Of a DNA stretch of 64,000 nt, positions 8,361-33,608 are shown one piece after another (the stretch's first letter is position 1; each line of letters begins with the position of its first letter). The DNA lies in the NCBI RefSeq assembly GCF_026210795.1, contig NC_089448.1, positions 1,426,001 to 1,490,000 on the forward strand, written 5' to 3'. The position numbers and the translations under genes are program-made. Source of the DNA: Rhizophagus irregularis (lineage: Eukaryota; Glomeromycota; Glomeromycetes; Glomerales; Glomeraceae). The notes beneath the pieces were generated by a model, which searched no databases, was not told the origin of the DNA, and was given only the letters and a program-made list of their open reading frames with translations.

Positions 8361-8502
8361 TCTTTTACTATATATACAGTACCTAAAAAAAATAGTTTTC
8401 GTTCTAATATTTTAATATTTTGAAAAATTATTTTTTTGAAAATATTTTACTTATAAATTATTTTAAGCCAATTTATTATTATTATTTTTTTTTGAATAAA
8501 GA

Positions 8503-10005
8503 ATGTCCAGTCTCAATAAAGATATTCTTTTCTTAATATTTGAAGAATTACAAGAAGATTCAAAATCCCTCTTTTCATGTCTAATGGTTAATAGACTTTG
8601 GTGTGAAAATGTAGTACCGATTTTATGGAGGAATCCTTGGTGCTACAGTAATATTAATTATGCGAATAAAACCTATTTATTTTTCATTATTGCTTGCTAT
8701 TTATTAGATGATATAAAAGAATTCATAACAGATCGAGGAATCAAATTACCTTCGGGTTCAAATCAATCGCTCTTGTTTGATTATTTTTCTTTCTGCAGAA
8801 GTATCAATGTAAATACTATAAATAGTATAATTTCTATTGGATCAACTTTTGCTTATAATCAATTTTTTATGCAACAAGAATTTTACTCTCTCTTTATGAG
8901 AAAATGTCCAGAATTGAAGTATTTTGATATGAAATCAATTAAGCATCAAATATTTTATTTTCCGGAAGCCATTATTCGTCTTGAGTCACTCTGTGAATTA
9001 AAATGTAATACATCTATTGATTCTTCATACTTTTATGGATTATCGCAATTCTGTCAATATATACAGAGACTCATCATCATTAATATGGACACAAAAACTA
9101 ATTATGGGATTGTTAAGTTAATTGAAGTTCAGAAGAACTTAAAGCATTTTGAATGGGAAGATAATTTTGATGAAGAGCATTTTATGAATGATAATCCATA
9201 CGATAAAATTTTTCTTGCACTAGAAAAGAAAGCAGCAAGTCTCAATTATTTAAAAATATTTTTTCTATATGTGATAAATTATGAATACACATTATTGCAA
9301 AAGATACTTCCAAAATTTTATAAACTAAAAATATTAATAATTGAAAGCTTTTTTTATTTTGATGAAGAACAATTAGAAAAATTGAAAATGCAGGTTTATC
9401 ATGAACTTGAAATTCTTAATATAGATTGTACTAACAGACTAAGTATAATTACTAGTATAATTGAAAATAGTGGAGGACGTCTTAAGAAAATTTTATTTAG
9501 ACCGGATGATGCTGTTAATTACGAATATGATAGCTTTAATGAAAATTCTCTCAAATTTATTCGTAAAATTCATGAAAATTGTCCTTTAATTGAATATTTG
9601 ACAATTGCATTTTCACCATCAAAAGAACATTTCGCTGAATTTGAAAAATTACTTAAAATTTGTCAAAATTTAAAATCACTATTATTAATTTTATATAATA
9701 TGGATGTAATTGAAACTGAGGAAATGTTGAAAAATGGTGAAATTTTATTAAAAATATTAATTAGATCATCCCCAGCTAACTTTAAAGAAATTAGATTAAG
9801 TGATGATGATTTACAATTTTCTTTAGAAAACTTGGAAGAATTCTTAGAAAAATGGAGAGGTAGGCACGCACTTACCATATTTACTATTGATTCTAATTAT
9901 ATAAGAGAAGATTATACAAAACTAATCGATAAATATAAAAGTGATGGGGTAATCAAAGATTTCAAATATTTTCGTCACATAGATTCACTTAATTATTGTG
10001 TTTAA
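8503..10005 (+). CDS. F-box protein with leucine-rich C-terminal region, copy 1 (500 aa)
   Basis: Intronless frame of 500 codons starting in the context gaataaagaATG, identical in all four paralogues. Residues about 3-48 (LNKDILFLIFEEL, CLMVNRLWCENVVPILWRNPW) match an F-box, the helical module that docks a substrate receptor onto Skp1 in SCF ubiquitin ligases. The remainder has irregular leucine-rich strands (LKYFDM, LESLCEL, LEILNI, LKSLLLI), as in fungal F-box/LRR proteins, where this part selects the target. Substrate unknown. The frame is intact and the nearest relative in the window is the copy at 32109. Function in ubiquitination is inferred from the family. Confidence 0.88.
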   Translation: MSSLNKDILFLIFEELQEDSKSLFSCLMVNRLWCENVVPILWRNPWCYSNINYANKTYLFFIIACYLLDDIKEFITDRGIKLPSGSNQSLLFDYFSFCRSINVNTINSIISIGSTFAYNQFFMQQEFYSLFMRKCPELKYFDMKSIKHQIFYFPEAIIRLESLCELKCNTSIDSSYFYGLSQFCQYIQRLIIINMDTKTNYGIVKLIEVQKNLKHFEWEDNFDEEHFMNDNPYDKIFLALEKKAASLNYLKIFFLYVINYEYTLLQKILPKFYKLKILIIESFFYFDEEQLEKLKMQVYHELEILNIDCTNRLSIITSIIENSGGRLKKILFRPDDAVNYEYDSFNENSLKFIRKIHENCPLIEYLTIAFSPSKEHFAEFEKLLKICQNLKSLLLILYNMDVIETEEMLKNGEILLKILIRSSPANFKEIRLSDDDLQFSLENLEEFLEKWRGRHALTIFTIDSNYIREDYTKLIDKYKSDGVIKDFKYFRHIDSLNYCV

Positions 10006-12280: not shown

Positions 12281-13066
12281 ATGACTAACGAAGAAAATGT
12301 TAATAATATTAATAATACAAATGAAGATGACCTCGATTTTGAGGAAAACGACTCAAATACCTGGACTGCTTGCGGTCCCATGGCAAACTTACCCACAGAA
12401 ATTTATTGTGGAAACTCTCTCGAGCCTGCTGTTAAGAAAAAAATTTTTCAGGCCGAACCTCGAAATAAAGATATATCCTTTACACCACTCAAGATGGAAC
12501 AACGCATGTTATCCGTCATGTCCCGTTTTGACAAAGAAACTGACAAAAACTATAGTAGACTGCTCTATAAAACGTTCTCAGTTCTTAGACCGATCGATAA
12601 TACACTCAGGATGGTTTATGCTTCAAAGCCGACCGAAGACTCTGGAGATTCTTACGAGTCTTAGCTCCAACTTGAACAGACAGTACTCAACTCAAGGGCC
12701 CTCCTTTTGGACGCCTTATCATACGGAAATGACCTACGTAGGGAACTGGCACTTAAGAACCTCTCTTCCAATTATAGAAAACCTACCGGTCAATGAGGTG
12801 TTTTCAGGGATAAACTACCAGAGTTGGTTCAACAAGAAAATGAAATTAACAAATTGTTTAATGAAGCTGCTTTTCAAAAGAAACGAGCTCAACAAAATTC
12901 AAAACAGAAACAATACTCTCCTGTCAGTTTTAAATCATCTACAACAGGATCTCAAAATTCATACAATTCTTACAAAGGAAAGAACCGTAATTATTCACGA
13001 TCCCAATCACACTCACAATCGCAGGGAAATTTTCAGTCAAGCACGTCAACAAACAACCAAAAATAA
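12281..13066 (+). pseudogene. DIRS gag-like gene with two in-frame stops
   Basis: One frame runs from ATG 12281 to TAA 13064-13066 (262 codons), interrupted by TAG at 12662-12664 and TGA near 12794. The start is Asn/Asp/Glu-rich. The C-terminal part is Gln/Ser/Asn/Lys/Arg-rich (FQKKRAQQNSKQKQ, SRSQSHSQSQGNFQSS), as in nucleic-acid-binding Gag proteins. No zinc knuckle is visible, which is normal for DIRS. Both stops fit C-to-T changes (CAG to TAG, CGA to TGA). Position immediately 5' of the RT gene supports the call. Confidence 0.7.
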
Positions 13067-13071
13067 TTTCT

Positions 13072-14552
13072 TCTTCAACTCCCTCAAAGATCGCTGGAAG
13101 GATCTCCCACTTCAAAGACCATTGGATCGCGTCTTTTGGCAAAAATTGGGTTACAGATATTGTCCAATATGGTTATCGTCCAGAATGGTTAACAGTCCCT
13201 CCTTTAGAAGTTCATCCTATTTCACCCAATCGCCAATACAAGAAAGATCTCAAGATTTTTTACGACGAGATTCAAGCATTATTACGGATTGGAGCAATTC
13301 GAGAATTAGACATCGATACTCCATGTTTTTTGTCCGACCTGTTTTTAGTACCCAAAAAAGGGGGGAAACTCTGACCTGTCATAGACTTATGAAAACTGAA
13401 TCAGTTCGTATACTACCAACATTTCAAAATGGAAAACTTAGAATTGTTGAAATCTATGATCTGACGGAACGATTATATGGTGTCCATAGATTTAAATCAA
13501 GCTTTCTTTCATGTTCCCCTAGCAGTGGACCAACAACCTTATTTTTCTTTCGATTTCCAGAACAGACGTTTTTGTTTCACATGTTTACCTTTCGGTTTAA
13601 CAACAAGTCCGAGGGTGTTCACCAAGATCCTTCGTCCAGTGATAAAATCTCTTCGGAATCAAGGCATCAGATTGATGATATATCTAGACGACATACTCAT
13701 AATGGCAAGGACGAAAGACGAAGCGTTACAACAGTTAAAGGAAGTCATGGATACCTTAGAAAGAATGGGATTTACAATCAACAAAGAAAAGTCAATGCTC
13801 GTACCCTCTCAATCGATAGAGTATCTAGGCTTCAAGATCAACACAAAGACGATGACCTTTGTCCTCCCGCAGACAAAAGTAAAGGACCTAGTGAACGAAT
13901 GCAAAAAGGCAGTACATCTATCCAAAATACCTGTCCGGAAGCTAGCGTCTCTAATCGGAAAGATATTGGCAACAACGTCAGCGGTTTTTCCAGCTCGTCT
14001 TTACTCCAGAGCTCTGCTCCGAGACAAAAATTATGGTCTGAAACTGCACGGGTGGAACGGTACAGTACAGCTCTCCGACAAAAGCAAGTTGCAGCTCGAG
14101 TGGTGGATAAAAAATCTCCCTTCCTGGAATGGAAGAAGTTTAATCCAGGAAGAACCAAGTACAATAATTCACACAGATGCGTCAAATACCGGCTGGGGTG
14201 CATCCCGGGACAACTTGACCATCCACGGAAATTGGACTCAGTTGGAGTCAACTCTTCACATCAATATTCTGGAACTGAAGGCGATTCAGTTCTCCATTCT
14301 CGCGTTCAAGGAGCTAGTGAATCAAACGATATTGATTCGAACAGACAACATGACGTGTGTAGCTTATATCAACCATCAGGGCGGGACGATATCTCCGGAT
14401 CTCTCAAAGATCGCAGAGAATTTGTGGTCTGAAACGCAATCTAAAGTTGATAGCGGAACACATTCCCGGCATAAAAAATGTGGAAGCGGATCTAGCATCA
14501 AGGATAATGATCGAAAAGAACGAATGGAAGTTACATCGCAAAATCTTCAACG
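13072..14552 (+). pseudogene. DIRS reverse transcriptase / RNase H, 5' part, broken
   Basis: The frame enters with PPLEVHPISPNRQYKKDLK and contains reverse transcriptase blocks: SIDLNQAFFHVPL, CLPFGLTTSPRVF and the catalytic YLDD at 13681-13692. RNase H follows, with acidic residues in IIHTDAS, ILELKAI and RTDNMTCVAY. Three TGA codons lie upstream of the main open stretch (near 13372, 13387 and 13459) at positions where the family has Arg, consistent with CGA-to-TGA. A +1 frameshift near 14430 moves the reading to LKLIAEHIPGIKNVEADLAS, the end of RNase H. The gene is then cut at 14552 by the nested transposon and resumes at 27857. Confidence 0.85.
14546..14552. repeat. 7-bp target-site duplication (left) of the nested transposon
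   Basis: ttcaacg at 14546-14552 corresponds to ttcaaca at 27850-27856. The single mismatch is at a CpG (G-to-A). Joining 14552 to 27857 continues the RT frame exactly (KIFN then EIWGPYQLDQFA), which independently supports both the boundary and the length of 7. Confidence 0.8.
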
Positions 14553-14580
14553 TACTTTACAGAAACCTTGAATTTTTAAA
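14553..14580. repeat. Left terminal inverted repeat of element 1
   Basis: TACTTTACAGAAACCTTGAA and a few more bases pair imperfectly with the complement of 27822-27849. After about 28 bp the similarity dissolves into GATATC-type repeats. Confidence 0.8.
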
Positions 14581-14589
14581 CAATACCGA

Positions 14590-15390
14590 ATTGATATAAT
14601 AATGATGTTAAATAAATATCGTGGCGATATCGATTTGCAAATGATATCATTATGATATCGCAATGATATCATTTCAATATTAATTCAATATATCGAAATG
14701 ATATCGTAAAGATATTTGTTTGAAAAAATATCAGATCGATATCATTTCGATATTGTTATAACAACAATGAATTTTTTGAAAAATGGGAAGTAAATACGAT
14801 ATAAATATGATATCGTTCCAACATTAATTCAATATCAATATGATATCGTAAAGATATCACTTTATAATTATCTAATCGACATCATAACGATATTGACGAA
14901 ACATCAAATCGATATCATATCGATATTTCGATATTGTTATAACAATAATGAAAAATAGAAAGTAAATACGATATTAATATGATATCGTTCCAACATTAAT
15001 TCAATATCAATATGATATCGTAAAGATATCACTTTATAATTATCTAATCGACATCATAACGATATTGACGAAACATCAAATCGATATCATATCGATATTT
15101 CGATATTGTTATAACAATAATGAAAAATAGAAAGTAAATACGATATTAATATGATATCGTTCTAACATTAATTCAATATCAATATGATATCGTAAAGATA
15201 TCACTTTATAATTATCTAATCGATATTGACAAATAACGAAACGATATCATTTTGATATTGTTATAACAATAATGATTTTTTTTAATAAATGCAATATCAA
15301 TATAATATTATTTTAATATTAATTCAGTATCAAAATAATATCAAAATGATATTATCTATAAAAATATCAAATCAATCAAATATCGTTTTA
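14590..15390. repeat. Left GATATC-rich subterminal array of element 1
   Basis: Many copies of the palindrome GATATC and near variants (gatatcgt, cgatatc). Part is a 172-bp tandem repeat: the motif g(g/a)aagtaaatacgatat recurs at about 14786, 14958 and 15130. Units contain the phrase attaattcaatatcaatatg, which is also the core of the array at the other end of the element. In TIR transposons such subterminal repeats commonly bind transposase; that role is inferred. Confidence 0.8.
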
Positions 15391-17312
15391 TAATATTTTA
15401 ATAATTTGTAATCTAATTTAAAAGTTAATTTCAATAGATTTAAGTTACCGGTTATTTATTACAATAACAATTTTAATTACAGATAAAGTATACATTAGTT
15501 TAAATATTATATAACAGATAAAAAAAATATCAATAAATCTATAATAAACTAATTCAATAAATTAGAATTATGAGTTAAATTGGTGATGTAAGTCAAAACA
15601 TTATGCCTTAATACTCCAGAATCATAACTCATCAACCCAAAGTTGAGGATTAACCGGGTACCTTGCTTTAGATTCAGCGACACTGCCCAAGTTGGATGGG
15701 GTGTCACAGGTACGCTTTAAGAAGACTCGCTACGACTCTATTGCAAAAAGGATAAGTATATTCGAAAACACCAGACATAAATTCACCTCAGAAGTTTGGC
15801 GGGAAACCCCTATAAACAACTGCAGTTTCATCATTACCAAAATCATTGAATTTAGGGATACAATGAAAAAGTTCATGAGAATGACGGCTTTAAAAAAAAA
15901 ATACAAATATATTCTCAACTTTGACAATTCACCCTTATTCTTTGGCCTGGAATTCTCATATGACTGCATTATTGTTGTTTGTAATTTGATCCATTGAATC
16001 CACCATAAATTGCCTGGCAAAGCGAACTTTTATTAGACAACTATAGCTTCATCAACAAACGTTGCAATGTGTTTGGACGAATGACATCCTGTTTAATAAA
16101 TTTTAAATGGGCAAACGTGGACCTAAAACCCATTATAAGGTAGGCTGCAAGAAGTGCAAAGCAACCTACCTAACCCACGAGTGGGTCTAAGGGTTAGGGA
16201 ATTAATTACACGCCAAACACACACAAGTTGGTATGGAGTTAAAAGTCTTACAAACTAAAAATTATTTTTGCCACTTAATTCTCCAATAATCAATGTTATA
16301 AAAAAGTTACTTACGACTTAAGCCTACTTAATTATATATAAAACGACACTTCGAACAGACAGAGCTCATGATATATGAGAATATCCCATCATGCCTATTT
16401 TAACCTTTGATTAAAGGATTTTCGTTGCGTTAATTATATAAGCTTTACGCCTATATAACATAAGCTTACACCTATATAATTCAAGTCCGCCTTTTCCTAT
16501 AACACACTATGCACGACGGCAAACGGTATAGGAGGAAGACTCTACTTTCAGAAAGAAAGTTTTTTTTTTCAAAAAAAAAAACGTACAAATAAATAGCGGT
16601 TAAATAAAATAGTGGTTAAATTGACTTTTTAGGAATTAATAGGCCTTATAGCCTTATAATATACGCGATCATTTAATATACGCGATCATTTAATCAGACA
16701 ATTTATTAAATTTGGTATTACACGAACTTGATCAACCTGATAATTGTTTAGTCTCTTTATAGGTGGATATTTCTTAAATTATCACCTGAACTTTTCAATT
16801 TTTTGCAGAATCGAAGATGGAAACCGGAAAAGTATTCTGATTCAGAATTTTTTTTTAAGAAATGTGTTTGTTATTTTGTAAATTACCAGTCAGAATTGGC
16901 TTAAACTTTAAAGTTCTTACTTTACGCAAATGTTACGCAAATGTATTCTTTTTGATCTGTATAAGAACGTCAAATATATAGAGATATTTAGGCCGTATAT
17001 ACTAAAGAAGAAACGTCATATAATAACCATTCCATTTTTAACAAAACAACAATTACTTTTTAAACTTGAAAATGTTATATCTTAGACAAACATTTTATAG
17101 TTTTATACATCCATTTTATTTTATATTATTATCACTCGACATTATGGTATAATGTTTAGAATAATGATGTTTCATATTATCATTTGCTTGTAAAATTTAC
17201 TAAATTTATTCAATGTAATATCGTTATAAAATGCATAATTTTATAAAAAAATTAGAGCGTTTGCTAAGATTTATAACTATGTATAATTTAATATTATTAT
17301 TAATAACTATGA
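15391..17312. other. Element 1 interior, no gene supported
   Basis: AT-rich. Open frames near 15692-15997 (plus) and 15730-16020 (minus) overlap each other, lack family features and are probably chance. 16130-16200 holds a short palindromic stretch (taggctgc-aag, then caacctacctaa), but no tRNA-like fold is evident. Confidence 0.35.
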
Positions 17313-18174
17313 TTAAAGGATATGAAGTATCAGTACAGTATAAATAAAATAACTTACCGATAAAGAATCAACGATCTTATTTCCGCTCCTAGAAGGGATC
17401 GTTAATTTTTTGGTCATATTATCTAATTCTTTAACGGCGGACAAATTTTTTCCGTTCCACGAAACCTTAAAGGTTTCTCTTACGAAATCAACCAAGGTAT
17501 TGAATCCTCCATTTCTTGTTAATTCTGAAATATTAACAGCTACAAGCTGTCGGCTTAAAATCTTTTGGACAAATTCTTCATCAACGTAATCTATAAGTTC
17601 CTTTTGAGATAAACTTCCAGTAGATGCTCTATAATTAAATTAATAATTAATACAAACAGCACTATTTGGTTAGCTACGAAACAATTAAATAAATACCTGT
17701 TTTTTCTTATTTCTTTAAATTCTTCTACAGAAGTTAAAATAATTTGGTTAAACTTATTTCTGAAATCGATAAAAAATTTTCGGGTTTTTTCGAGGTAGCT
17801 TTTAGCTTCGTTCGAATGTATTTTTATTTTGAAAATTTTTGTTATCAACTCATCAAAAACTTCACCACGCGGACTTCTTGCACGTAAAAAAAGACACTTG
17901 ACACTTTCGTCTCATAGACGAATTTTATCCTAAAATATTAAAAATACATTATTTAAAAGATTTAGACATAATAAAATCATGTTAATTTAATACTTACGTC
18001 CGTAATTTTACTGGATGATGAGATAGCAACATCCGTATTGTTCATTTCTAGTGCCAATCTTAAAATTTCCGGATGGTCGACGAGCCAAGCAACTATTTCT
18101 AAATTTGACTTTGATTGAAATACTTCGGGTTTTTTATGATCTTCCGTCTTACTCTCATCATCATCATCATCATT

Positions 18175-18206
<32 letters not shown>

Positions 18207-18519
18207 TACTTCTTTTTTCATTTACTACTATAACTTCTTTATCAGCAGATTCGGCAGCTTCTTTATTACTATTTTTACTTTTTTTCATCAACTGATTGGC
18301 TTTCTCAATGTCAATATCTCTTCTTTTTTTCGTAATTTGTTTTCTTTTCGATCCTATTATACATATTTTTGGTATTTATTAATTATTCTTCTTACATATA
18401 ACTATATAAGCAAAACTTACTATAAATTTACAAAAGAGTTATATCTACATACCTCCTTCAACTTCCATTTCTTGATTATCATCAGACGATTTATTAGGTA
18501 ATTTACGTTTAGTCGTCAT
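17313..18519 (-). CDS. Transposon partner protein of unknown function (element 1), with an in-frame TGA
   Basis: Four exons on the minus strand are inferred from GT-AG sites: 18519-18453, 18353-17998, 17929-17697 and 17628-17313 (324 codons). The N-terminal part is basic (KRKLPNK, KRKQITKKRR) and nuclear-localisation-like. A run of Asp follows at about codons 70-90. The C-terminal part (EVFDELITKIFKI, FIDFRNKFNQIILTSVEEF, LVDFVRETFKVSWN, KLTIPSRSGNKI) aligns with the protein encoded at 50046-52014, where order and spacing are preserved. Codon 147 is TGA (17914-17912); the relative has TGA at the same aligned site. The gene points away from the transposase. The last exon may be longer, since GTAAG follows DSLS. 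No known domain recognised. Confidence 0.65.
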
Positions 18520-19019
18520 AATATAAAAAAAAAAATATGAGCGAAAAAAAAAGTGGAACAACCTTTTTGTTTAAAAGTAGGTGATATTTATCGAGAAAAT
18601 ATGAATGAATAAAAAATGTAGAGCAACTTTCTTGCTCAAAAAAGTAAATGATAAATATTGAATGAACAAAAAAAAGGGCGAGGTTATCATGATATAATTT
18701 TGAGATTTTAGCTATTGTAATTATGATTGTAGTATTTAATTGGAAAATATACATGATCTTAATATCATTGTGTATCGTGTAGAATGCAGGATCAGTTAAA
18801 AATATCAGGAGATGGGAAAACTAAAAATTATGATTTCTAGAAGATCGAAAATTAAATTTAATTAATATAAATAAATTATTACAATATCGAATTTCATTCA
18901 GTGAAATTTTTTTTTTACATGGAAGATTACCTCAAATCGATTTTACGGTTTCAAATTTATTATATTTTTCAGGCTATACGTGGAATGAGAAGAAAAATAA
19001 TGGAAAGGTGAGAAGAAAA
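18520..19019. other. 5' side of the partner gene, no gene seen
   Basis: Holds paired short repeats of the type gaatgaac(a/t)aaaaaa and aaaagt near 18540-18690, directly upstream of the partner gene's ATG. No coding or RNA feature seen. Confidence 0.35.
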
Positions 19020-19187
19020 ATGATCGGTAGAAGAAAAGGAGTGAGAAGAAAAATGATCAGTAGAAGAAAAGGAGTGAGAAGAAAAATGATCGGTAGAAGA
19101 AAAGGAGTGAGAAGAAAAATGATCGGTAGAAGAAAAGGAGTGAGAAGAAAAATGATCGGTAGAAGAAAAGGAGTGAGAAGAAATTAA
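19020..19187 (+). repeat. 33-bp tandem repeat encoding an Arg/Lys-rich 11-residue repeat
   Basis: About five copies of gtgagaagaaaaatgatcgg + tagaagaaaagga. The period of 33 is a multiple of 3, and one frame from ATG 19020 to TAA 19185-19187 stays open for 55 codons as repeats of VRRKMIGRRKG. It could be a real strongly basic micro-protein or simply a purine-rich minisatellite. No start-site or homology support. Confidence 0.6.
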
Positions 19188-19856
19188 TGGAATATTACGT
19201 TTTGAATTTCCATTTTTATGTGTGATACGATGACATGCAAGAAAAAAAAATTTATAAGATCCTGGTACTCTTGACGGAAAAATAACTGAGCCAATGAACC
19301 ATGTGATGATCCTATCTAACTAAGCCATATCTATTTAGTGTAAGCCTCTGGATTGATTACATAAAAAATAGATGGGATCTACAGTAGTAGACTTACAACG
19401 ATATTTGAAAAATACCGATATATTGATTGAAATTGTGAAATTACTGATAGGAAAGAGTTTTAATACATATTGGTGTAATCAAATATCGGTATATAAAGTA
19501 TCAACTATTCAAATAATACAAGTCATGTGCAACTAATCATTTGTTTAATTGTTCGATAATATTCCTAAAACGGAGTAAATTAAGATCGAATTAAGTTCGT
19601 TACGGTGTAAATTAAGGTTAGCTTAAAATTCAGTATAATTGTAATATATCATCGCAGTGTAATATGAAATATAATCAAGGAAGGACATGCGTGATTTAAA
19701 ATATTATATTTTATAATTATAAAGTATAAAGATAACATTTTAACTCATTTTTTATTAATAGAATTTGTTTATTTATTTTTATTTATATATATTAATTAAT
19801 GCAGTATTACTATAATTATATTTTTAAAATAAATTGATAAATCAAAAAATTGAGTG
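19188..19856. other. Element 1 interior, no gene seen
   Basis: AT-rich spacer between two tandem repeats. No open frame, repeat or RNA gene supported. Confidence 0.35.
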
Positions 19857-20266
19857 TATTCAATGTTAAATAAATTAATTAAAGATGATTGCATTAGAAC
19901 TAAAAAATTTAGGCAAGATCGTAAAAATAAACTCAAAGAAATCAAAAAAAAATATGTGTGTATTCAATGTTAAATAAATTAATTAAAGATGATTGCATTA
20001 GAACTAGACAAAATCGTAAAAATAAACTCAAAGAAATCAAAAAAAAATTATGTGTGTATTCATTGTTAAATAAATTAATTAAGGATGATTGCATTAGAAC
20101 TAAAAAATTTAGACAAGATCGTAAAAATAAACTCAAAGAAATCAAAAAAAAATTATGTGTGTATTCAATGTTAAATAAATTAATTAAGGATGATTGCATT
20201 AGAACTAAAAAATTTAGACAAGATCATAAAAATAAACTCAAAGAAATCATAATAAATTTATTATAA
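19857..20266 (+). repeat. Tandem repeat of about 105 bp, four units, frame-preserving in the last three
   Basis: Units begin at the phrase tgttaaataaattaattaa (about 19865, 19969, 20065, 20170). The last three differ in length by multiples of 3 (96 and 105 bp), so the frame from 19958 to 20266 stays open for 102 codons as repeats of LNKLIKDDCIRTKKFRQDRK. The first unit is out of frame. Lys-rich, no domain recognised; it may be noncoding. Confidence 0.7.
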
Positions 20267-20317
20267 ATATAGAGCCTTTTCTTGACATTTTCCCCATCAA
20301 ACTAATAATATTTAATA

Positions 20318-20904
20318 ATGGCAGCATTAAACTTAAACGCAAATCTTCCAGTATACATTCAATGGCCCGATGATGCTGCTTTGACCTTAATTCAGCGTCG
20401 TCGGGCCTATCAGCCCTTATTCACCACAACGAGGTTACATAACCAAAACCAATTATGGCGTGGAATTGCTCGTGATATACGAAACAACCACATATTCAGG
20501 CCAACTAGAAAACAATGTAGAGAGAAATGGAATGCGCTAAAGTCGGGTACGAGAATTTAGAGAGATTAATAAACAGAAATCCTGAAGGATATCCCACTCG
20601 TACCCCGACTTTGCATGACGAGAGATTCCACCAGGAACTCTCTGACGAGTTTTGGAGAGTGGAGCGTAAGTATTTATTATTTAACTGATTTTTTCATTAA
20701 TTCATTGCATTTATATTAATACTTGCTTTGTTTTAAGCATTAGTCCGGGCCGCCCGGAGAAATAGGATGGATCGTAGGACATACGAGTATAGAGAGCGCA
20801 GGCGCTCTCGCTCCCGATCCCCCTACTACCACCGAGAGCGCAGGCGCTCTCGTTCTCGATCTCCCTACCACCGAGAGCGCGGGCGCTCTCACCGACGTCA
20901 TTGA
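20318..20904 (+). pseudogene. SANT/Myb-like DNA-binding protein with Arg-Ser tail, one frameshift
   Basis: ATG 20318 opens a helix-rich N-terminal region with spaced Trp: WPDDAALTLIQRRRAYQPLF, LWRGIARDI, CREKWNALKSG. This is the pattern of the trihelix/SANT-like DNA-binding domains common in fungal transposons. At about 20545 the frame breaks; the sense continues one frame over as YENLERLINRNPEGYPTRTP. An intron 20666-20737 (GTAAG...TTTTAAG) leads to a second exon ending at TGA 20902-20904, with two ERRRRSRSRSP repeats. A single-base indel or assembly error would explain it. It lies between the partner and transposase genes, but no copy was seen in the second element, so it may be a passenger. 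Confidence 0.6.
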
Positions 20905-21041
20905 TTTTTTATTTTTTATTTTATTATTTTAATATATTTTATTTTATTTTATTATTATGTTTTATTTTATTTTAATATTATGTTTTATTTTATTTTATTA
21001 TTATATGTTTTATTTTATTATATGTTTTATTTTATTTAATT
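20905..21041. repeat. AT-rich simple repeat (attttatt type)
   Basis: Runs of tattttattttattattatg. The same kind of tract continues at 21550-21640, so the inverted-repeat element at 21042-21543 inserted into it. Confidence 0.6.
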
Positions 21042-21543
21042 CGTGATCCGCCAGTGAACCATAAAATTTGACTATTAAAAGGCGGTGATAAGTTCATATA
21101 TATTTTTATCAATAATTTAGAATCTGCGATTCTGGAGAAAAAATATGGGATAACTCGCCTTCTATTGGTCATAAAGACATAAAATCATTACCATTAGATG
21201 CGTCTCAATGAGACGAATCCGATAAACCAAATTTTATTTTCATACGACCACTAGATGATGAGTTATCTTTAAAATTTTAAAATACTAAATTTTTCTTTTT
21301 TTTCAAATTCAAATTTTCAGCTCTTATGAAAGTGTCTTTTGGTGCTTAAAATTTTTACCGGTCTTTTATTATTAAGATAGCCAAATGGCATATTTTTATG
21401 CCTATAATATTAGTTTTCATATAATATTTTAGTAATTTGTACCTTGCATTGGCGGAACTGTAGATTCCGTGCTATTAGTAAATATATATATAACTTTCAC
21501 CGGAATTTAATAGCCAAGTTTTATGGTTCACTGGCGGATCACG
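21042..21543. mobile_element. MITE of 502 bp with about 40-bp inverted ends
   Basis: Left end CGTGATCCGCCAGTGAACCA; right end is its complement (tggttcactggcggatcacg), with pairing extending to about ctattaaa. Flanks atttaatt and aattaatt match at 7 of 8 positions, a possible 8-bp duplication as in hAT elements. There is no open frame of note inside, so it is non-autonomous and nested in element 1. Confidence 0.7.
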
Positions 21544-21892
21544 AATTAATTATTATTATGTTTATATTATTATATGTTTTATTTTATTTTATTATTATGT
21601 TTTATATTATTATATATTTTATTTTATTTTCTGATTCAATAAATGACTATTTTCGATAATATTATTTGTCATACCAATTGTCATTAACCGGTATAATTGA
21701 CCCTAAATTTTGTGTAGCCAAATCGGCAGTAATTTAACCGAATTGATTACTTAATTGCATTTTTTTTTTGCCGACACACTAATAGTATTTAATAAATTTA
21801 GTTCTAATTGAATTTATAACAGATACTGTGGTAGTGGTACCACTGGTAATTATGTTCTAATTAAATTTGAATTATTTTAAATTGTTATAAAG

Positions 21893-24800
21893 ATGAGAAG
21901 ACGATATAGTCACAACAAGCCAATAGAGCCAATTCGAATTCGAAATCGGTTTTCTTACAGCAAACCTAATGAGACAACAGATTCTGACGAGAGAGTGGCA
22001 ATTCGTTCGCCTGTACGTTCACCTGATAATGATAACGATGACATGGACTTTCAGTATGATCATAAAGATGATTTAAGTTTTCAAGACATTAATGATGACG
22101 ATAATGCATATGGATCAATTAATCCTCAAGACTACAATGATGAGATGATATTTTCGCAAGATAATGTCAATTCATCTGATACTGAAGAGGAAGAAGAAAG
22201 TGATAACGAATACAATTATGAAGAGGAGGAAGAGGAGGAAGATAATAATGAAAACAATGACGAAGAGGAGGAGGATGAAGGTAATAATGATGATAATAAT
22301 AATCAAGTGGAAGAGGAACGTAATAACGATGAAGAGGAACGTAATTACGATGAAGAGGAACGTAATAACGATGAAGAGGAACGTAATAACGAAGAGGAAG
22401 AAATACATCAAATCGTTGAAGCGTTAGATGAAGACAAGATACCGTTCTGCAATGGTCAATTTGCACCGTACTTTGATAATTATACAACTACGGCATTATT
22501 TTGCTGGCTTCAGAAACATAATGTTTCTACGAAAGCATATGAAGATCTTGTCGATATCATTCACAATTCTCAATTTGAACCTACCCATGTGGTAAAAAAT
22601 ATCCGAAGATTCCAATCATGGAGAAAACGTCTTCCTCTCCTACCAATAATAACAAAGTCTATTAAAATTTCACCAAAAAAAACTCCATCAACCTCACGAG
22701 GATCAAAACTTTCGTATCAACTCTCAATTAGTGAAATTATATGGCGTGTTCTTAATAATCCGATGCTAATGAAGCATATGTATTTTGGACCCGGCATTAA
22801 TTCTGAAGAAAAATCAGAATTTTGGCATGGAAATTTATGGGGGGAATCCCCACTTTTTGGACAACACGAAATATTAATATCAGAAGGTTATAAATTAATA
22901 CACTTTGATACAATTATAATTTATTATCATTGATAATATTTATTAAAGTTATTTATTTTTAATAAATAGTATTGTACCGATCTGGTGATTTTGTTTACTA
23001 TCATGATGATAATGGTCAAAAAAAACTTGGAAGATTAAGATCAATTTTAAAAAATCATGATGGATATTATCAGTTACGAATTCAAAAAATTTTGGAATAT
23101 AGTGATTTACCCGGAAATTTAAAAGGGTTACCAAGACAACGTCGTTCTATTACCGGTGAAGTATGGTTACAAGACGAACCATTTTTAATTATAATGACTT
23201 CTCAAATTTTAGAAAAAGTAACTATATTGATGATGTTTCAACATCAAAATATTCCTGATGGTTCATTGCGGATTAGTGAAATAATTTATAAATGTAATGA
23301 CCGTTGGCACGTTCGTAATGTAAAGCTTTCATACCTACATCCATCTGATTACATTTCTATTAGAAATCCACCATCATCATCTATGCCAATCTATAAGCTG
23401 TTTTTAGATCTTTATTATGATGATTTTGGTACATTTAGAAATGTATACCATTCTCTAGGTGGTGTTTATGTACAGTTTGGAAATATGCCAGCACATCAAA
23501 GAAAGCTAATAAAGAACCATTTTGTTATTGGGTTTATCCCATTTGGAGGAAAATTTGACGAATTTATGATACCATTCATTTCAGAAATGAAGGAATTAGA
23601 GAAAGGAAAGGTGATAACTGTCCAAGGACAAGATGCATGGATAATTGCTGGTTTAGGCGTTGTTACGGCAGATTTACCTCAAGGTAACGATATGACAGGA
23701 GTACTAAGGTATTTTTTCAACTTAGTTAATAATATAATAATATAATTTTATGACAACTATTAAAATTGTTTAAAAAATAAATTTAGACATAATGCAAATA
23801 AGGGTTGTCGTACTTGTAAAACTACTAAAGAATCATTGAGTGCTCACAATCAGGATATCGTAACAACATTACGTTATCATCATATTACAGACGAAGAAAT
23901 CTTAAAAATTTCTCATGAGACTATAATGTCAAGAAGAGATCAACTTTGTACGGAATATGGTTTACGATCATTACCTAGTATTTTAGATAAATTAAAAAGG
24001 GAAAGACATTTACAGACGCCGCAGGATGTTTATCATGCGACTGCAGGAAAGATTGGGCGGCTACTAAAATTAACTTGTGAATTATTTTCACGAGAAGGAG
24101 AAGATAATTTTATCGAAATTTGGAAAAATTTAGAAATTCCAAAAAGATGGTCTCGCTTACCAAATCCGATTACTCACTACAATAGTTTTATGATGTCGGA
24201 TTTACTTAGATTAGCTATGATTATGCCATTTTTGTTAAACCAGTTTTTAAAAGAATCAAGTATCAAACGTAATGAAACAGCCATGATTCAACAAAGAATT
24301 GATGCATTTCGAGTTAGTTCAGTTCCAAAAATTATTATATCTTGTTGGATACATGTTGCAAAAACTATGAAAGCGGTTTTTAACAAGAAATTTACATCAG
24401 ATAGCTATGAGGAATTGCAACAATGTCTTGAAGAAGAGTTTTCAATCCTTCCAAAGGTATAGTTACAAATTTGATATTGAAATGTGGAATAATTTCAAAT
24501 AATTAACAATATTTTACTTTTTATAGGTTTTTGTAAATTTTGTTAATTTACCAAACATACACGTTAATATGCATCTTTTGATGCATGCTAAAACCTTTGG
24601 AACACTTATTAATACCCAAGTTGGTATAAAAGAAATGGTCCATCATATTTTTAAGGGGATGGTACCAAAAACTAATTGCAAAAACATAGATTTAGATTTA
24701 TTAAAGCGTTACAATACTTTATTTGCAATTCGACATTTAGCAGATGGTGGTATTGATCCAAGATTTAATAGATCTTGTACTGGATTTACAAATTCAAATT

Positions 24801-25530
24801 TTGGACAATTATTTTTAAATTGGTATGTTACAGAAGATAAATATTCAACTGAAGCAACTGAACAAGTTCAAGACGATGATGATGATACAAAAAGTAAGTA
24901 TTTTATTGCATATAATAGTACATGTTTGATATTTATATTTACTAATCTTTTAATTTAGTTATATCTCCAGTAAACTTTATTTCCAATATTTCATTAAAAA
25001 AAAGAATGCCAAAGCAGGAACGTGATAAACTTCTTTTAACTTTACATAATTTTAAAACTGAATTGTTTTTATCTTATGTGGATATGAAGTTTGAGGCGGC
25101 ACTTATAAACTCTTCAATTAGTTGGTACAAATTTGCATCATATATGATTGAAGAAGAAAATGGTATCCTTTCAAAAGTTCACCTACATCTCGATGATTTT
25201 ATCACAATTTATGAAGAAGATCATGAAGAATCTTATGCAATAATCAAAGGTATCTTTCAACATAAGGGTAACAATAACAAATATTATGCATTTATTGTTG
25301 TAGATTGGTTTGAAGATACTATGGTTGAACATTCAGTATTAAAATGTCCACTTTACCGTCTCCAAGCAACAGGAGATAAATGGAGACGTATTTTTCCAAT
25401 TACTGTAATAGATAATGTTCAAAAAGTACATTTTATTCATAATTGTAATTCAGAAAGGTGCCAACTACCAAATCATGATACTACAAATAGAATTTGGATA
25501 AAAAATAATTTTTATTTTACAGCCATATAA
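21893..25530 (+). CDS. Plavaka-like transposase with embedded BAH-like domain (1113 aa, five exons)
   Basis: Exons 21893-22886, 22970-23708, 23787-24456, 24527-24893 and 24959-25530 join through GT-AG introns of 65-83 bp into 1114 codons with no stop. An acidic Asp/Glu/Asn-rich stretch covers about residues 35-175. Next comes a conserved N-terminal block (ISEIIWRVLNNP, FGPGI, EFWHGNLWGESPLFG). A BAH-like module spans about 336-465 (SGDFVYYHDDNGQKKLGRL). The core begins DLYYDDFGTFRN (about 478-490), continues with GNMP and IPFGGKFDEF, then TADLPQGNDMTG and a CRTC pair at 585-588. The C-terminal region has WFEDT and VHFIHNC. This order matches the Plavaka group related to CACTA/KDZ transposases. 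The active-site assignment is inferred. Confidence 0.85.
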
Positions 25531-26814
25531 TTATATTAATTATATAAATATAATAAAATAATTATTTTAATTTGTATCGTATAAAATTTTAACCAATAAA
25601 ATCATATGCATGATGTAATAATAAATTAAAATTAACCAATTAAAATCACTTTAATTACATGCATGTGATATCATGCATGTGATATCTAAAAATAGCTAAA
25701 ATTCGCGTTTATTAATGAGATTTTTTTTGTTTATTTTCAAAAATACGCTTTTCTCTTGTCTTTTATATTAATACTTTACGGTATTTTAGTTCGTCTCTTT
25801 TTAAAGTATACTTTAATTATCTTTTTACAATATTAACAATACTTTGGGACACTTTAGTTTATATATTCAACATAGTAAGACACCCACATACGAAAAGCAA
25901 GAATAAAAGCAAGAATAAAGAAAAGAAAATGTACCCGCCACTCACATACGAAAGAAAAGAATAAAAGAAAGGAAAAATGTACCCACCTACCCACATACAA
26001 AAGAGAAAAAAGCCGTTTTTTAAATAAATAGTGGAGCTGTTAAGCAAGGTATGAAAATAGGATATACGCGTATTTTTCATATTTTTTTTACAATATGTTG
26101 TGGTTTGAGTATTTTTTTGTTAGACTGTGGTATAAATGTGAATATATTTTTCAACGGCCATGTATCTATTGCTTGTTAAATATATTTGCAATTTCTTTGT
26201 TAGACTGTGGTATTACAATATGAAGTGTGAATATATTTTTCAACGGCCATGTATCTATTGCTTGTTAAATATATTTGCAATTTCTTTTGTAATATTTGCT
26301 TTAGCCTGGAAGAAAATGTTGTAAAATAGGGCTGGATATTTATGGCATTTTCCGCCTTCCAATTACTTTGTCCGGGGGTAGCCTGACAATTTGTCGTTGT
26401 CCGTCAGTCGTAGCAACCAGCATTTTTTTACAATATTATGATTTTAAGAAACAAAACACTTTCAAAAAAATTTAAAGAAAGAACTAACTTAAAAATATTA
26501 TCATTTTTATTATTCTTTACAAAATCCCGGAATTACCTGCTCTAACTATTATCCCAAGGTTATGTATTAAATTTTAAATATATTTTACAAAGAGTACATT
26601 TTATTAATCATGATTGTTTTTTTTATTTTTTATATATATATATATATATATTTTAAAATTGAAAATGACGTATCCATCCACTCACATACGAGAAGAAAAG
26701 AATAAAAAAAAAGGAAGAAAAGAAACGTACTCCACTCACCCATAATAATCCACTAATAAAAAATTATTATTATTAATGTATAATAAATAATAAACATATA
26801 TTACAATAAAAATA
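25531..26814. other. Element 1 interior with small tandem repeats, no gene
   Basis: 25870-26000 and 26670-26750 share a repeat of the type ccactcacatacgaaaagaa. 26128-26290 is a tandem duplication of about 89 bp (gaatatatttttcaacggcc...caatttctttgtt). A (ta)n run is at 26630-26650. No coding or RNA gene seen. Confidence 0.5.
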
Positions 26815-27660
26815 TTTTTGTGATGTTAATTCGGTGTTAATATAATATCATTACGATGTAGTTACGATATTAAATAAATGTAAAACATTTTTTGTAATAT
26901 TAATTCGATATTAATATGATATTATTATGATGTAGTTACGATATCAAATAAAATTGTAATATTAATTCAATGTTAATACGACATCACTACGATGTGGCTA
27001 CGATATCAAATAGATGTAAAATATTTTTAATATTTTTGCAATATTAATTCGATGTTAATATGATATCACTACGATATGGCTACGATGTGGTTACGATATC
27101 AAATAAAATGTCAAATATTTTGCAATATTAATTCGATGTTAATATGATATCACTACGATGTGGTTACGATATCAAATAAAATGTCAAATATTTTGTAATA
27201 TTAATTCAATATTAATACGACATCACTACGATGTGGTTACGATATCAAATAGATAAAATATTTTTGAATATTAATTCGATGTTAATATGATATCAATACG
27301 ATGTGATTACGATATCAAATAAAATGTCAAATATTTTGTAATATTAATTCAATGTTAATACGACATCACTACGATGTGGTTACGATATCAAATAGATGTA
27401 AAATATTTTTGCAATATTAATTCGATGTTAATATGATATCACTACGATGTGGTTACGATATCAAATAAAATGTCAAATATTTTGTAATATTAATTCAATG
27501 TTAATACGACATGGTTACGATATCAAATAAATGTCAAATATTTTTGTAATATTAATTCAATGTTAATACGACATGGTTACGATATCAAATAAATGTCAAA
27601 TATTTTTGTAATATTAATTCAATGTTAATACGACATCACTACGATGTGATTACGTGATAA
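26815..27660. repeat. Right GATATC-rich subterminal array of element 1
   Basis: About ten units of 60-80 bp built from gtaatattaattcgatgtta, atatgatatcactacgatgt and ggttacgatatcaaataaa. The attaattcaat(g/a)tta core is shared, in the same orientation, with the array at 14590-15390. Later units have lost blocks, as in an array shrinking by unequal exchange. Confidence 0.82.
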
Positions 27661-27821
27661 TATTTACATCGCATAATGATCGCTGCGATATCGCAGAGAT
27701 ATCGAACTAATCAATGTCGAATAAATATAGTTACGACTAACTTAACGACGTCGAATCTATTTTTTATCAAAATATCGTAATGATATCGTAATGATATCAT
27801 TGCAATATCTAATCAATATCG

Positions 27822-27849
27822 ATTGTAAACTCCAAGTTTCAGCAAAGTA
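27822..27849. repeat. Right terminal inverted repeat of element 1
   Basis: Ends ctccaagtttcagcaaagta, the complement of the left end with a few mismatches. It is followed by the duplicated ttcaaca (27850-27856). Confidence 0.8.
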
Positions 27850-27856
27850 TTCAACA

Positions 27857-28388
27857 AGATATGGGGTCCTTATCAATTGGATCAATTTGCAAGCAGAACC
27901 AACACCCAACTTCCCCGTTATTATGCATGGAAAACGGATCCGTTTGCCGAAGGGATGGATGCTTTTCGGCAAAAGTGGTCCAAAATGAAACTATGGTCGA
28001 ACCCTCCTTGGGTTTTAATTCCACGGATATTGGCAAAACTGATTCGGGAAAGGCTTCTATGACTATTCTGGTTCCGATGTGGCCGTCAGCCCCATGGTTC
28101 CCATTATTAATGAGCCTATTAATAGATCTACCGATATTGATTTGCTCCAACGAAATTCTTTGCCCATCGTCACCTCCCCAAATACACCCACTTCGCAATC
28201 CACAGTGGAAACTGCTCGCTTGCAATATTTCCAGACTAGGAACAAAGACAAAGGCTTTTCGGATAAAACCATTAACTTACTCTCATCGTCAGTGGATAAT
28301 AGATCTTCAAGAACAGTGTCTTCAGCTATTCGAGTATGGGAACATTGGTGTGACTCACAACACATCGATCCTGTTACTTGCCCTATAA
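27857..28388 (+). pseudogene. DIRS reverse transcriptase / RNase H, 3' part
   Basis: The frame resumes as EIWGPYQLDQFASRTNTQLP, then FAEGMDAFRQKW and NPPWVLIPRILAKL, a block typical of the end of DIRS pol. Near 28050 a 1-bp loss in an A run shifts it to MTILVPMWPSAPWFPLL, and the frame ends at 28388. The last part overlaps the recombinase gene in a different frame, as usual in DIRS elements. The gene is dead through this shift as well as through the 5' stops. Confidence 0.75.
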
Positions 28389-29275
28389 ATAAGATTTGTG
28401 AATTTTTTTCCGACATGTTGACATTTGGAAAATCATATAATACTATCGCTGGCTATAGATCAGCCATTAGTGAAATGCACGAACGAATTGATAATTTCTC
28501 AATTGGAACTCACCCAGACATTTTAAAAGCTATGCAAGCTATTCGGATCAATAAGCCTCCTACTTCAAAGTCAGATGACGCTATTGATATTATTCCTTCG
28601 TTAGAATTTATTGTTTCCTTGGGTGACAATTCAACCATGTCTATTAGAGAACTTACTTGCAAAACAGCCTTTTTATTGGCTTTGATTTCAGCGTGTCGTC
28701 CGTCAGATCTTCATCAGATTAATGCTTTTGATTATACCAAGACAAGGTCTTCTATTTCGTTCAATTGTGTCGCACCCAAGGAATATAATATCGCGGTTGC
28801 ACATTCAGCCTCCACAACAAAATCCCGATTAAAAAAGATTTTTGTTGGTGTTTACCCAGATGAAAGACATCTTTGTCCATATGAAGCTGTTACTTCTTTG
28901 TTATCAAGAACTTCCCTATGGCGTGTATCTGCTGATCAAAAACGTGCTCTTTTTCTTATTACAAAAGAACCTCACTCACCAGCTTCCGTGGATACTATTG
29001 CCGGATGGATAAAATCTATTTTAAAGATTTCCTCTCCGGGTTCAACAGCTAAAGATATGCGTGTATTGGCAGCTTTTTTCGCTCAAAATGCTGGGGCTGG
29101 ATTGGAGACCGTACTAGCACTTGGCAATTGGTCTAGTAATTCGGTTTATCACCGTTTCTACCAAAGGGGTATTAAATTGATGTTAGAACGTAATCAGGTT
29201 TCTTCGTTGATTTTATCGGAAGCACGTGTGGGTCACGATTCTTTAGACGAAGTCATTAATGATTCTCCGCAGTAG
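28094..29275 (+). CDS. DIRS tyrosine recombinase (about 393 aa)
   Basis: First in-frame ATG at 28094 (a GTG at 28079 is also in frame); stop TAG 29273-29275. The C-terminal half has phage-integrase family features: Arg box LALISACRPSDLHQI, then DMRVLAAFFAQNAGAG, LGNWSSNSVYHRFYQRG with the candidate catalytic Tyr, and nearby basic residues. This enzyme integrates the circular DIRS DNA into target sites. The frame is fully open, unlike gag and RT, and overlaps the end of RT. The stop is immediately followed by the internal complementary region. Confidence 0.85.
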   Translation: MVPIINEPINRSTDIDLLQRNSLPIVTSPNTPTSQSTVETARLQYFQTRNKDKGFSDKTINLLSSSVDNRSSRTVSSAIRVWEHWCDSQHIDPVTCPINKICEFFSDMLTFGKSYNTIAGYRSAISEMHERIDNFSIGTHPDILKAMQAIRINKPPTSKSDDAIDIIPSLEFIVSLGDNSTMSIRELTCKTAFLLALISACRPSDLHQINAFDYTKTRSSISFNCVAPKEYNIAVAHSASTTKSRLKKIFVGVYPDERHLCPYEAVTSLLSRTSLWRVSADQKRALFLITKEPHSPASVDTIAGWIKSILKISSPGSTAKDMRVLAAFFAQNAGAGLETVLALGNWSSNSVYHRFYQRGIKLMLERNQVSSLILSEARVGHDSLDEVINDSPQ

Positions 29276-31987: not shown

Positions 31988-32108
31988 CACTCATTCTTTT
32001 AAAAAAAAATAGTTTTCGTTCTAATATTTTGAAAAATTATTTTTTGAAAATATTTTAGAAGTTTCACTTATAAAAATTATTTTAAGCCATTTTTTTTTTG
32101 AATAAAGA

Positions 32109-33608
32109 ATGTCCAGTCTCAATGAAGATATTCTTTTCTTAATATTTGAAGAATTACAAGAAGATTCAAAATCCCTCTTTTCATGTCTAATGGTTAATAG
32201 ACTTTGGTGTGAAACTGTGGTGCCGATTTTATGGAGGAATCCTTGGTGCTACAGTAATATTAATTATGCGAATAAAACCTATTTGTTTTTCATTATTGCT
32301 TGCTATTTATTAGATGATATAAAAGAATTCATAACAGAGCAAGAAATCAAATTACCTTCGGGTTCAAATCAATCGCTCTCGTTTGATTATTTTTCTTTCT
32401 GCAGAAGTATTAATGTAGATACTATAAATAATATAATTTCTATTGGATCAACTTTAGGTCATAATCAATTTTTCATGCAACAAAAATTTTACTTTTTCTT
32501 TATGAGAAAATGTCCAGAATTGAAGTATTTTGATATGAAATCAATAAAGCATCAAATATTTTATTTTCCGGAAGCCATGATCCGTCTTGAGTCACTTTGT
32601 GAATTAAAATGTAATACATCTATTGATTCTTCATACTTTTATGGATTATCGCAATTCTGTCAATATATACAGAGACTCATCATTATCAACACGGACACAA
32701 AATCTAATCATGGGATTGTTAGGTTAATTGAGGTTCAGAAGAACTTAAAGCATTTTGAATGGGAAGATTATTTTCATGAAGAGCTTTTTATGATTGATAA
32801 TCTATACGATAAAATTTTTCTTGCACTAGAAAAGAAAGCAGAAAGTCTCAATTATTTAAAAATATTTTTCCTATATACGATAAATTATGAACACATATTA
32901 TTGCAAAAGATACTTCCAAAATTTTATAAACTAAAAATATTGATAATTGAAAGTTTTCTTCATTTTGATGATGAACAATTAGAAAAATTGAAAATGCAGG
33001 TTTATCATGAACTTGAAATTCTTGATATAGGATGTAATATGTTAAATTTAATTTCTAGTATAATTAAAAATAGCGGAGGATGTCTTAAGAAAATTTTATT
33101 TAAACCCTATGATGTTATTGATAATGAAGTTGGTAGCTTTAAAGAAAATTCTCTCAAATTTATTCGTGAAATTTATAAAAATTGTCCTTCAATTGAATAT
33201 TTGACAATTATATTTCCACCATCAGAAGTACATTTCGCTGAATTTGAAAAATTACTTAAAATTTGTCAAAATTTAAAATCATTATTATTAATTTCATATA
33301 ATGTGGATGAAATTGAAACTGAGGAAAGGTTGGAAAATGGGGAAATTTTATTAGAAATATTAATTAGATCAGCTCCATCTAATTTAAAAGAAATTAGATT
33401 TAGTGATGATGATTTACGATTTTCTTTAGAAAACTTTGAAGAATTCTTAGAAAAATGGAAAGGCAGACATGCACTTTCTATATTTACTATTGATTCTTAT
33501 TATATAACAGAAGATTATACAAAATTGATCAATAAATATAAAAGTGATGGGGTAATCAAAGATTTCAAATATTTTCGTCACATAGATTCACTTAGTTATT
33601 GTGTTTAA
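32109..33608 (+). CDS. F-box protein, copy 2 (499 aa)
   Basis: Intact and intronless, with the same gaataaagaATG start context as copy 1. The N-terminal F-box (residues about 3-48, MSSLNEDILFLIFEELQEDS) differs from copy 1 at only a few positions. Most differences lie in the C-terminal leucine-rich half, and residues about 100-120 have local changes (LGHNQFFMQQKFYFFFM). By family, an SCF substrate receptor candidate with unknown target. Its distal upstream sequence appears displaced by the nested transposons, so its promoter context differs from its sisters. Confidence 0.88.
   Translation: MSSLNEDILFLIFEELQEDSKSLFSCLMVNRLWCETVVPILWRNPWCYSNINYANKTYLFFIIACYLLDDIKEFITEQEIKLPSGSNQSLSFDYFSFCRSINVDTINNIISIGSTLGHNQFFMQQKFYFFFMRKCPELKYFDMKSIKHQIFYFPEAMIRLESLCELKCNTSIDSSYFYGLSQFCQYIQRLIIINTDTKSNHGIVRLIEVQKNLKHFEWEDYFHEELFMIDNLYDKIFLALEKKAESLNYLKIFFLYTINYEHILLQKILPKFYKLKILIIESFLHFDDEQLEKLKMQVYHELEILDIGCNMLNLISSIIKNSGGCLKKILFKPYDVIDNEVGSFKENSLKFIREIYKNCPSIEYLTIIFPPSEVHFAEFEKLLKICQNLKSLLLISYNVDEIETEERLENGEILLEILIRSAPSNLKEIRFSDDDLRFSLENFEEFLEKWKGRHALSIFTIDSYYITEDYTKLINKYKSDGVIKDFKYFRHIDSLSYCV

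Follow-up and report, generated by a model that had tools for sequence, protein, structure and literature searches.

A minus-strand partner gene accompanies the transposase in two transposons of the window, by which we mean the whole stretch of 64,000 nucleotides of Rhizophagus irregularis DNA analyzed here. The partner lies with the transposase inside the TIRs and is tied to that transposase lineage, and not beyond chance to two other transposase types; it is under purifying selection and is largely inherited with the transposase. We estimate a probability of about one-half that it is a dedicated gene of a CACTA-group TIR transposon lineage and encodes a TNPA-like accessory protein that binds subterminal repeats. 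More broadly, we infer that it acts in transposition, binds DNA or helps to avoid silencing, as an earlier note on this DNA had proposed.

Both transposons named in the earlier note, at 14553-27849 and 48886-57383, are real elements, and their exact ends lie slightly further in:

14555-27847: transposon 1, 13,293 bp, ends CTTTACAGAAACC / GTTTCAGCAAAG
48888-57381: transposon 2, 8,494 bp, ends CTTTGCTGAAACCTCTG / CACAGGTTTCAGCAAAG (also written CTTTGCTGAAACC ... GGTTTCAGCAAAG)

Transposon 1 is flanked by a TA target duplication (14553-14554 and 27848-27849) and transposon 2 by AA at either side. The ends of element 1 are fixed by its empty site, given that the joined flanks, with one TA removed, match four uninterrupted loci over 240/240 bases at 96-98%. 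The host of this insertion is a retroelement, DIRS-like by eye, which is split into 12285-14571 and 27850-29275 and matches RVT_1 with an E value of 8e-28; Pfam matched nothing in the frame presumed to encode its recombinase. The survey covered the R. irregularis genome (146.7 Mb, 32 contigs), and the distribution described here is that in this one genome. TIRs were read at both ends of six elements (the two of the window and four more), five of which have a 2-bp target duplication (TA, TA, AA, TT, AA), while the sixth, on C16, has none; a 1-kb piece (L054) from a seventh copy (C30) held no end motif. The termini are CTTTRCWGAAAC (CTTTGC, type CT..AG), and the 12-base end CTTTGCTGAAAC occurs 202 times genome-wide versus 8 times for a reversed control. 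The flanking DNA had been described as unalignable between the two elements, and blastn indeed aligns pieces of the transposase exons and elsewhere only short stretches. Within element 1, about 505 bp at 21041-21546, with inverted ends GTGATCCGCCAGTGAACC seen by eye, have no counterpart when the C19 copy is aligned and are probably a nested small element.

Elsewhere in the window, a gene of about 500 residues, which by eye we take to be F-box-like, is present in four dispersed copies (8500-10005, 32106-33608, 36757-38256 and 44436-45938). On the minus strand, 57513-62469 carries a large frame of 1329 residues, presumably Sel1-repeat-like, with a second frame beside it that we assume to be kinase-like.

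The two partner genes were modeled as follows, partner 1 from the genomic sequence alone:

17358-18519, minus strand: partner 1, four exons, ATG at 18519
18453-18519, minus strand: partner 1 exon 1, which holds the ATG
17998-18353, minus strand: partner 1 exon 2, a basic and acidic low-complexity part followed by the block EIVAWLVDHPEILRLALEM
17697-17929, minus strand: partner 1 exon 3, KCLFLR ... FIDFRNKFN, with TGA at 17912-17914 replacing a conserved Trp
17358-17628, minus strand: partner 1 exon 4, LVDFVRETFK ... IPSRSGNKI, true 3' end uncertain
50046-52014, minus strand: partner 2, likely ATG at 52014, RG-rich N-terminal part, upstream exons tentative and roughly modeled
50046-50755 including the stop, minus strand: partner 2 conserved exon, in which the same Trp codon is replaced by TGA (50541-50543)

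A conserved partner on the strand opposite the transposase in both transposons was the claim of the earlier note, and it was found at the coordinates and with the motifs quoted there. The homology between the two C-terminal parts also held, but its length of about 170 residues was too short: across 16 aligned loci the core spans about 230 residues and includes an extra upstream block, with ICNWLVxHPxILxLANxM, W-EE-KCLFLRxRxP, DFRNKFN, LVxFVREAFK, KELDxITK and PSRSGxNIASxL following each other in order. Seventeen columns are invariant in a 15-row alignment of the core, which left out L034, whose exon piece had been missed. These alignments were built from curated exon pieces in place of an automatic profile iteration that had run through introns; L028, L032, L036, L037, L041 and L043, being broken or close to another row, were kept out, and two further loci (L066-L069) were unused.

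Partner-1 DNA is present in at least 40 places of the genome, including the window copy (40 of 81 candidates scored). Both window copies carry TGA at one aligned Trp codon, which means that neither is intact. Of the 39 other partner-1 copies listed, 20 were compared at this codon, and 17 of these have TGG and 3 have a stop, so that we regard the Trp as conserved and the stop shared by the two window copies as a coincidence; five of these 20 copies are unbroken over all four exons. Programmed read-through or recoding of the stop, considered on account of the shared TGA, was ruled out by the same 17 TGG codons.

Upstream of the core, the N-terminal parts vary, from acidic and basic runs to an RG-rich part in partner 2 and GRPxGSK or RGRK-type cores elsewhere. 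Of 20 partner loci scanned by pattern, irrespective of exon boundaries, 10 have an N-terminal AT-hook-like core and the other 10, partner 1 included, have none; a match in L039 was excluded from the count as not N-terminal. The earlier note had recognized no known domain in the protein, and database searches agree with it. Among 15 partner members scanned with Pfam, weak matches were scattered over 12 families (best E value, 5e-4), none of them in more than two members, and a PDB profile search with the core reached a best E value of 0.4. A search of plasmid proteins gave one match (E value 9e-3, 29% identity), which we took as chance. Two AlphaFold jobs run on the window sequences alone returned mean pLDDT values of 52.5 and 39.3 and no usable fold.

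The association with transposases was assessed with two locus lists. Partner loci, at least 99, came from a search with the partner 2 core, in which 150 rows were merged by locus (177 matches; 150 of 218 candidates scored); transposase loci, at least 129, came from a search with the third exon of transposase 1 (153 matches; 150 of 243 candidates scored). Second pieces of one locus were left out of both lists. Within 20 kb of the 99 listed partner loci, the nearest transposase was divergent in 71, on the same strand in 7, convergent in 1 and absent in 20. A second transposase query, in which 22 unresolved partner loci were compared with 15 transposase places and 40 of 100 listed TIR places, added two divergent cases, giving 73 of 99 divergent and 18 of 99 without a listed transposase, some of the latter having a TIR end within 20 kb. 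The chance expectation for a transposase in any orientation within 20 kb is ∼3.5%. These counts are lower bounds in which the 20-kb limit may join neighbors of separate elements (a few pairs lie 16 to 18 kb apart), and because near-identical copies are not independent, we also give figures at the level of pairs. The linkage for which the earlier note had proposed a search is thus present in this genome, a divergent transposase of the same lineage lying within 20 kb of 73 of the 99 listed partner loci, and the hits are not scattered away from transposases. It is also specific: the at least 123 listed places of the Plavaka profile PF18759 lie within 20 kb of 3 of the 99 partner loci (3.3 expected), and the 150 listed places of the En/Spm-type profile PF02992 within 20 kb of 4 (4.0 expected), both at the level of chance.

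A head-to-head arrangement, as the earlier note had it, applies to most of the lineage, with 11 of 14 pairs from different families being divergent, but not to L027, L029 and L039, where both genes share a strand and the partner is the upstream one. In L027, L028 and L029 (C5, C2 and C4), where the partner is on the transposase strand, a further frame located upstream can be aligned weakly and collinearly with the core; the match has E values, within a small set, of 6e-5 and 0.03 in L028 and is not significant in L027 and L029, and the frame is perhaps a tandem duplicate of the partner in these families. At C6:1308585-1318603 (L050, L025 and L051), a 10-kb element bounded by the same TIRs and by an AA duplication carries an unbroken partner core. 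In L051, the 7.9-kb remainder of this element, tblastn found no transposase; it contains a Piwi-domain (Argonaute) fragment (PF02171, E value 9e-19), a captured piece of a silencing gene.

Partner and transposase have largely diverged in parallel. For the 14 pairs, the distances within the two proteins correlate with a Mantel r of 0.69, a value reached by none of 20,000 permutations. The delimitation of the families was our own judgment; the set excludes L034 and also L025, for which no transposase was found, and partner 1 is represented in it by the C16 copy (L007), paired with the transposase of the window. The clades (partner 2, L026), (L027, L029), (partner 1, L035) and L042/L038/L040/L033 are common to both trees. 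Conflicts concern L031 and L039, which are sisters in the partner tree alone (the transposase piece of L031 has only 118 residues), and L044 and L030, which differ in place. Mean identity over the 14 pairs is 38% for the partner core versus 56% for the transposase piece, a comparison that is only rough, given that the transposase piece is a conserved exon. In four close pairs of partners, dN/dS was 0.20, 0.18, 0.15 and 0.17 (dS 0.53-1.12), three of these pairs sharing three sequences; the other four of the eight pairs computed gave 0.28 (dS 1.4), 0.13 and 0.06 (both saturated, with dS above 2.8) and one undefined value. Taken with the at least 40 genomic places of partner-1 DNA, the values of 0.15-0.20 in four pairs show that the conservation is not due to chance. 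Co-inheritance and dN/dS therefore identify the partner as an old, selected gene of the element.

These results make it very improbable that the partner is a passenger or a captured host gene with no role in transposition. That reading can draw on the 18 of 99 listed partner loci with no listed transposase of the lineage within 20 kb and on the C6 element, where an unbroken partner core stands without a transposase detectable by tblastn in L051, but some of these orphan partners retain a TIR end and look like deletion derivatives, and the reading is at odds with the co-phylogeny, the purifying selection and the linkage. A known host family as the source of the gene, which the earlier note had considered, found no credible match in Pfam or PDB.

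The transposases themselves are as follows:

21893-25530, plus strand: transposase 1, 1113 aa, unbroken in this model, with five exons (21893-22886, 22970-23708, 23787-24456, 24527-24893 and 24959-25530)
52832-56571, plus strand: transposase 2, decayed, with several in-frame stops; matching pieces are 44-59% identical to transposase 1

The CACTA/EnSpm-Plavaka-Transib group is described as having a D, D, E, C(2)C, H(3)H arrangement (PMC12730594, in excerpt). Both D, D, E and C(2)C are found in these proteins, with D96, C115, C118, H343 and E367 invariant in seven transposases and the second H of H(3)H present in six of the seven. The earlier note had called the transposase Plavaka-like, which did not survive as a statement of membership: PF18759 lists 123 places above the cut-off (123 of 180 candidates scored), neither window transposase being among them, and hmmscan of 930 residues of transposase 1 and of pieces of transposase 2 returned no Plavaka match. 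We dropped Plavaka membership on these results and retained a remote relation, on the basis of an hhalign probability of 95.4% (E value 2e-8) against the Plavaka copies of this genome. Against the En/Spm-type proteins of this genome, hhalign gave 98.4% (E value 5e-15), placing transposase 1 nearer to the En/Spm type than to Plavaka by profile comparison; the En/Spm type and Plavaka compared directly gave 73.7% (E value 3e-5). No transposase family was listed by hmmscan for 930 residues of transposase 1, and none of 150 listed places of PF02992, Transposase_21 (of 162; 150 of 393 candidates scored), lay within 3 kb of 24 transposase loci. Plavaka termini are given as 5'-TGT or 5'-CATCA with a 2- to 3-bp target duplication, and those of the group as CA..TG in most cases (both from the excerpt of PMC12730594); the CTTTRCWGAAAC termini here are not of the Plavaka form, whereas the 2-bp duplication fits, and they are CT..AG instead of CA..TG. 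Based on these comparisons, we call the transposase a putative CACTA-group (CMC/EnSpm-related) lineage of its own. A possible BAH domain in transposase 1 (22970-23708; E value 0.0069, below the cut-off) was rejected, as it was not repeated when exon pieces of elements 1, 2 and C3 were scanned singly.

Besides the two genes, the elements contain a third frame and subterminal repeats:

20318-20557, plus strand: Myb/SANT-like third frame of transposon 1 (PF13837, E value 4e-9)
14626-15248: left subterminal array of element 1; 18 GATATC in the first 1 kb, CpG observed/expected 3.45
26940-27798: right subterminal array of element 1; 18 GATATC in the last 1 kb, CpG observed/expected 3.08
57009-57271: right-end repeats of transposon 2, spaced 22 or 33 bp

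The arrays stand out from the interior of element 1, whose middle 11.3 kb contain five GATATC and have a CpG observed/expected ratio of 1.14. About one GATATC per kb is expected, and the maximum in 500 simulations was six. A spacing of 11 bp is the most frequent, accounting for 7 of 40 intervals, and CGATATC and GATATCG together amount to 14 per terminal kilobase, sites with both motifs being counted twice. The C19 copy has 18 GATATC in its first kilobase, 5 in its middle and 10 in its last kilobase. Outside the CpG-rich arrays, element 1 is otherwise AT-rich. The repeats of element 2 differ from those of element 1 and are clear at the right end only, with CpG observed/expected ratios of 1.57 at the left end and 1.10 at the right. 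Across 21 partner-1 copies, C-to-T change is ∼3-fold more frequent at CpG (0.0465 per site and copy) than elsewhere (0.0145), as would be expected of methylated DNA. CpG methylation of transposons has been reported for R. irregularis (PMC8647823, in excerpt).

For element 1, the description of a two-gene family has to be extended: the partner and the transposase are there as the earlier note had them, but element 1 and its close relatives add the Myb/SANT-like frame, which also occurs at other element-1-type loci, with 77 residues at 100% in the C19 copy. This frame bears on another explanation, which we judge unlikely, namely that the partner is a transposase-binding cofactor for end pairing or nuclear entry that leaves the reading of subterminal repeats to other proteins, in element 1 to the Myb/SANT protein. 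The invariant residues of the core and the co-inheritance with the transposase agree with such a cofactor, as does the existence of the separate frame in the element 1 group. Judged by eye among the matches listed (150 of 191 candidates scored), however, a Myb/SANT place within 20 kb was found for only 2 of the 14 pairs, partner 1 and L035, from which we take it that this protein is not the general binder of the repeats, and the basic N-terminal parts of the partners point toward nucleic acid binding.

In the TNPA-like explanation that we prefer, the basic N-terminal part, AT-hook-like in about half of the loci, would bind together with the C-terminal core to family-specific repeats below the TIRs, which in element 1 would be the GATATC/CGATATC arrays. 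Pairing of the core with another copy of itself or with the transposase would bring the element ends together, and the transposase would cut at the CTTTGC termini, with a 2-bp target duplication. Given that the sites of element 1 contain CpG and that transposons of R. irregularis are reported to carry CpG methylation, binding of the partner may respond to, or counter, this methylation. The model has a precedent in En/Spm, whose TNPA recognizes subterminal repeats and is required together with the transposase (PMC2613891, in excerpt). A second gene, a basic N-terminal part, lower conservation and arrays near the ends of element 1 all fit a TNPA-like role. It is weakened by the lack of a recognized DNA-binding domain in the core, by the 10 of 20 scanned loci that have no N-terminal AT-hook-like core, by the position of the partner in a gene of its own, unlike tnpA of En/Spm, by element 2, which has neither clear left repeats nor strong CpG enrichment, by the Myb/SANT protein of element 1 as the other candidate binder of the arrays and by termini of the type CT..AG, not CA..TG.

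The same CpG data enter into a further, less probable explanation, in which the partner would mainly be an anti-silencing factor like VANC of the Arabidopsis VANDAL elements, binding noncoding repeats and removing CpG methylation with no part in cutting. The CpG-rich terminal arrays of element 1, the excess of C-to-T change at CpG (0.0465 versus 0.0145 in 21 partner-1 copies) and the reported CpG methylation of R. irregularis transposable elements (TEs) (PMC8647823, in excerpt) are consistent with it, and the repeats differ between elements 1 and 2, as do the targets of VANC (PMC5735166 and PMC10398659, both in excerpt). Faster change of the partner core than of the transposase piece (38% versus 56% identity) fits such a factor but equally fits TNPA-like binding; the partner has no known demethylation domain, and the ends of element 2 are less CpG-rich than those of element 1. 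We regard as doubtful the joint claim that an undescribed protein family of arbuscular mycorrhizal fungi recognizes subterminal arrays that contain CpG and frees the element encoding it from CpG methylation, as an independent CACTA-group fungal counterpart of VANC that has diversified with the transposase into many families.

Repeats are reported to make up about half of the R. irregularis genome, with two-thirds of the TEs unclassified and both Plavaka and CMC families present (PMC11075540, in excerpt), and the TEs that expanded recently include CMC elements (PMC8647823, in excerpt). A conserved accessory gene offers a handle to classify this lineage, to separate complete from deleted copies and to investigate how, in a fungus that methylates CpG, elements evade methylation or turn it to their use. 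With it, CACTA-group elements gain a second protein that can be aligned across families, making its coevolution with subterminal repeats measurable.

Several known systems resemble the one described here. Harbinger elements likewise have a second protein, a Myb/SANT accessory protein, but the partner core has no Myb/SANT match and element 1 carries its Myb/SANT frame separately. The Myb-like protein of Harbinger is an end-pairing or nuclear-entry factor. Like the partner, VANC is a non-transposase protein encoded by the element; in both cases the noncoding repeats differ between elements and the host is reported to methylate transposon CpG. The transposase here is of the CACTA group, whereas VANDAL belongs to the MULE group. 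With Plavaka, these elements have in common a remote relation of the transposase and a 2-bp target duplication (PMC12730594, in excerpt), but their termini are CTTTGC and not TGT or CATCA, PF18759 lists neither window transposase and Pfam does not identify the second gene as TET/JBP. Nuwa also has two proteins, according to the same excerpt (PMC12730594). No paper was found on a Plavaka accessory protein or on fungal TnpA-like EnSpm genes, the titles and abstract openings of the other literature listed do not mention such a partner gene, and no accessory gene is named in the excerpt of PMC11075540, whose supplementary library may hold these elements under some name. The closest likeness is to TNPA of En/Spm and TNP1 of Tam1 from plants, each, like the partner, a second protein of a CACTA-group element and more divergent than the transposase (PMC2613891, in excerpt). 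Subterminal repeats, another feature of those plant elements, are strong at both ends of element 1 but clear only at the right end of element 2. There are also clear differences: in En/Spm, splicing of a single unit yields both tnpA and tnpD transcripts, and similarity is low among the TNPA-like proteins of different elements (PMC2613891, in excerpt), whereas the partner is a separate gene, usually divergent, with a core of about 230 residues that is maintained over many families. Accessory proteins of CACTA-group transposons are a known kind, while the family itself, with its mostly divergent layout and a sequence that can be aligned between many families, appears to be new.
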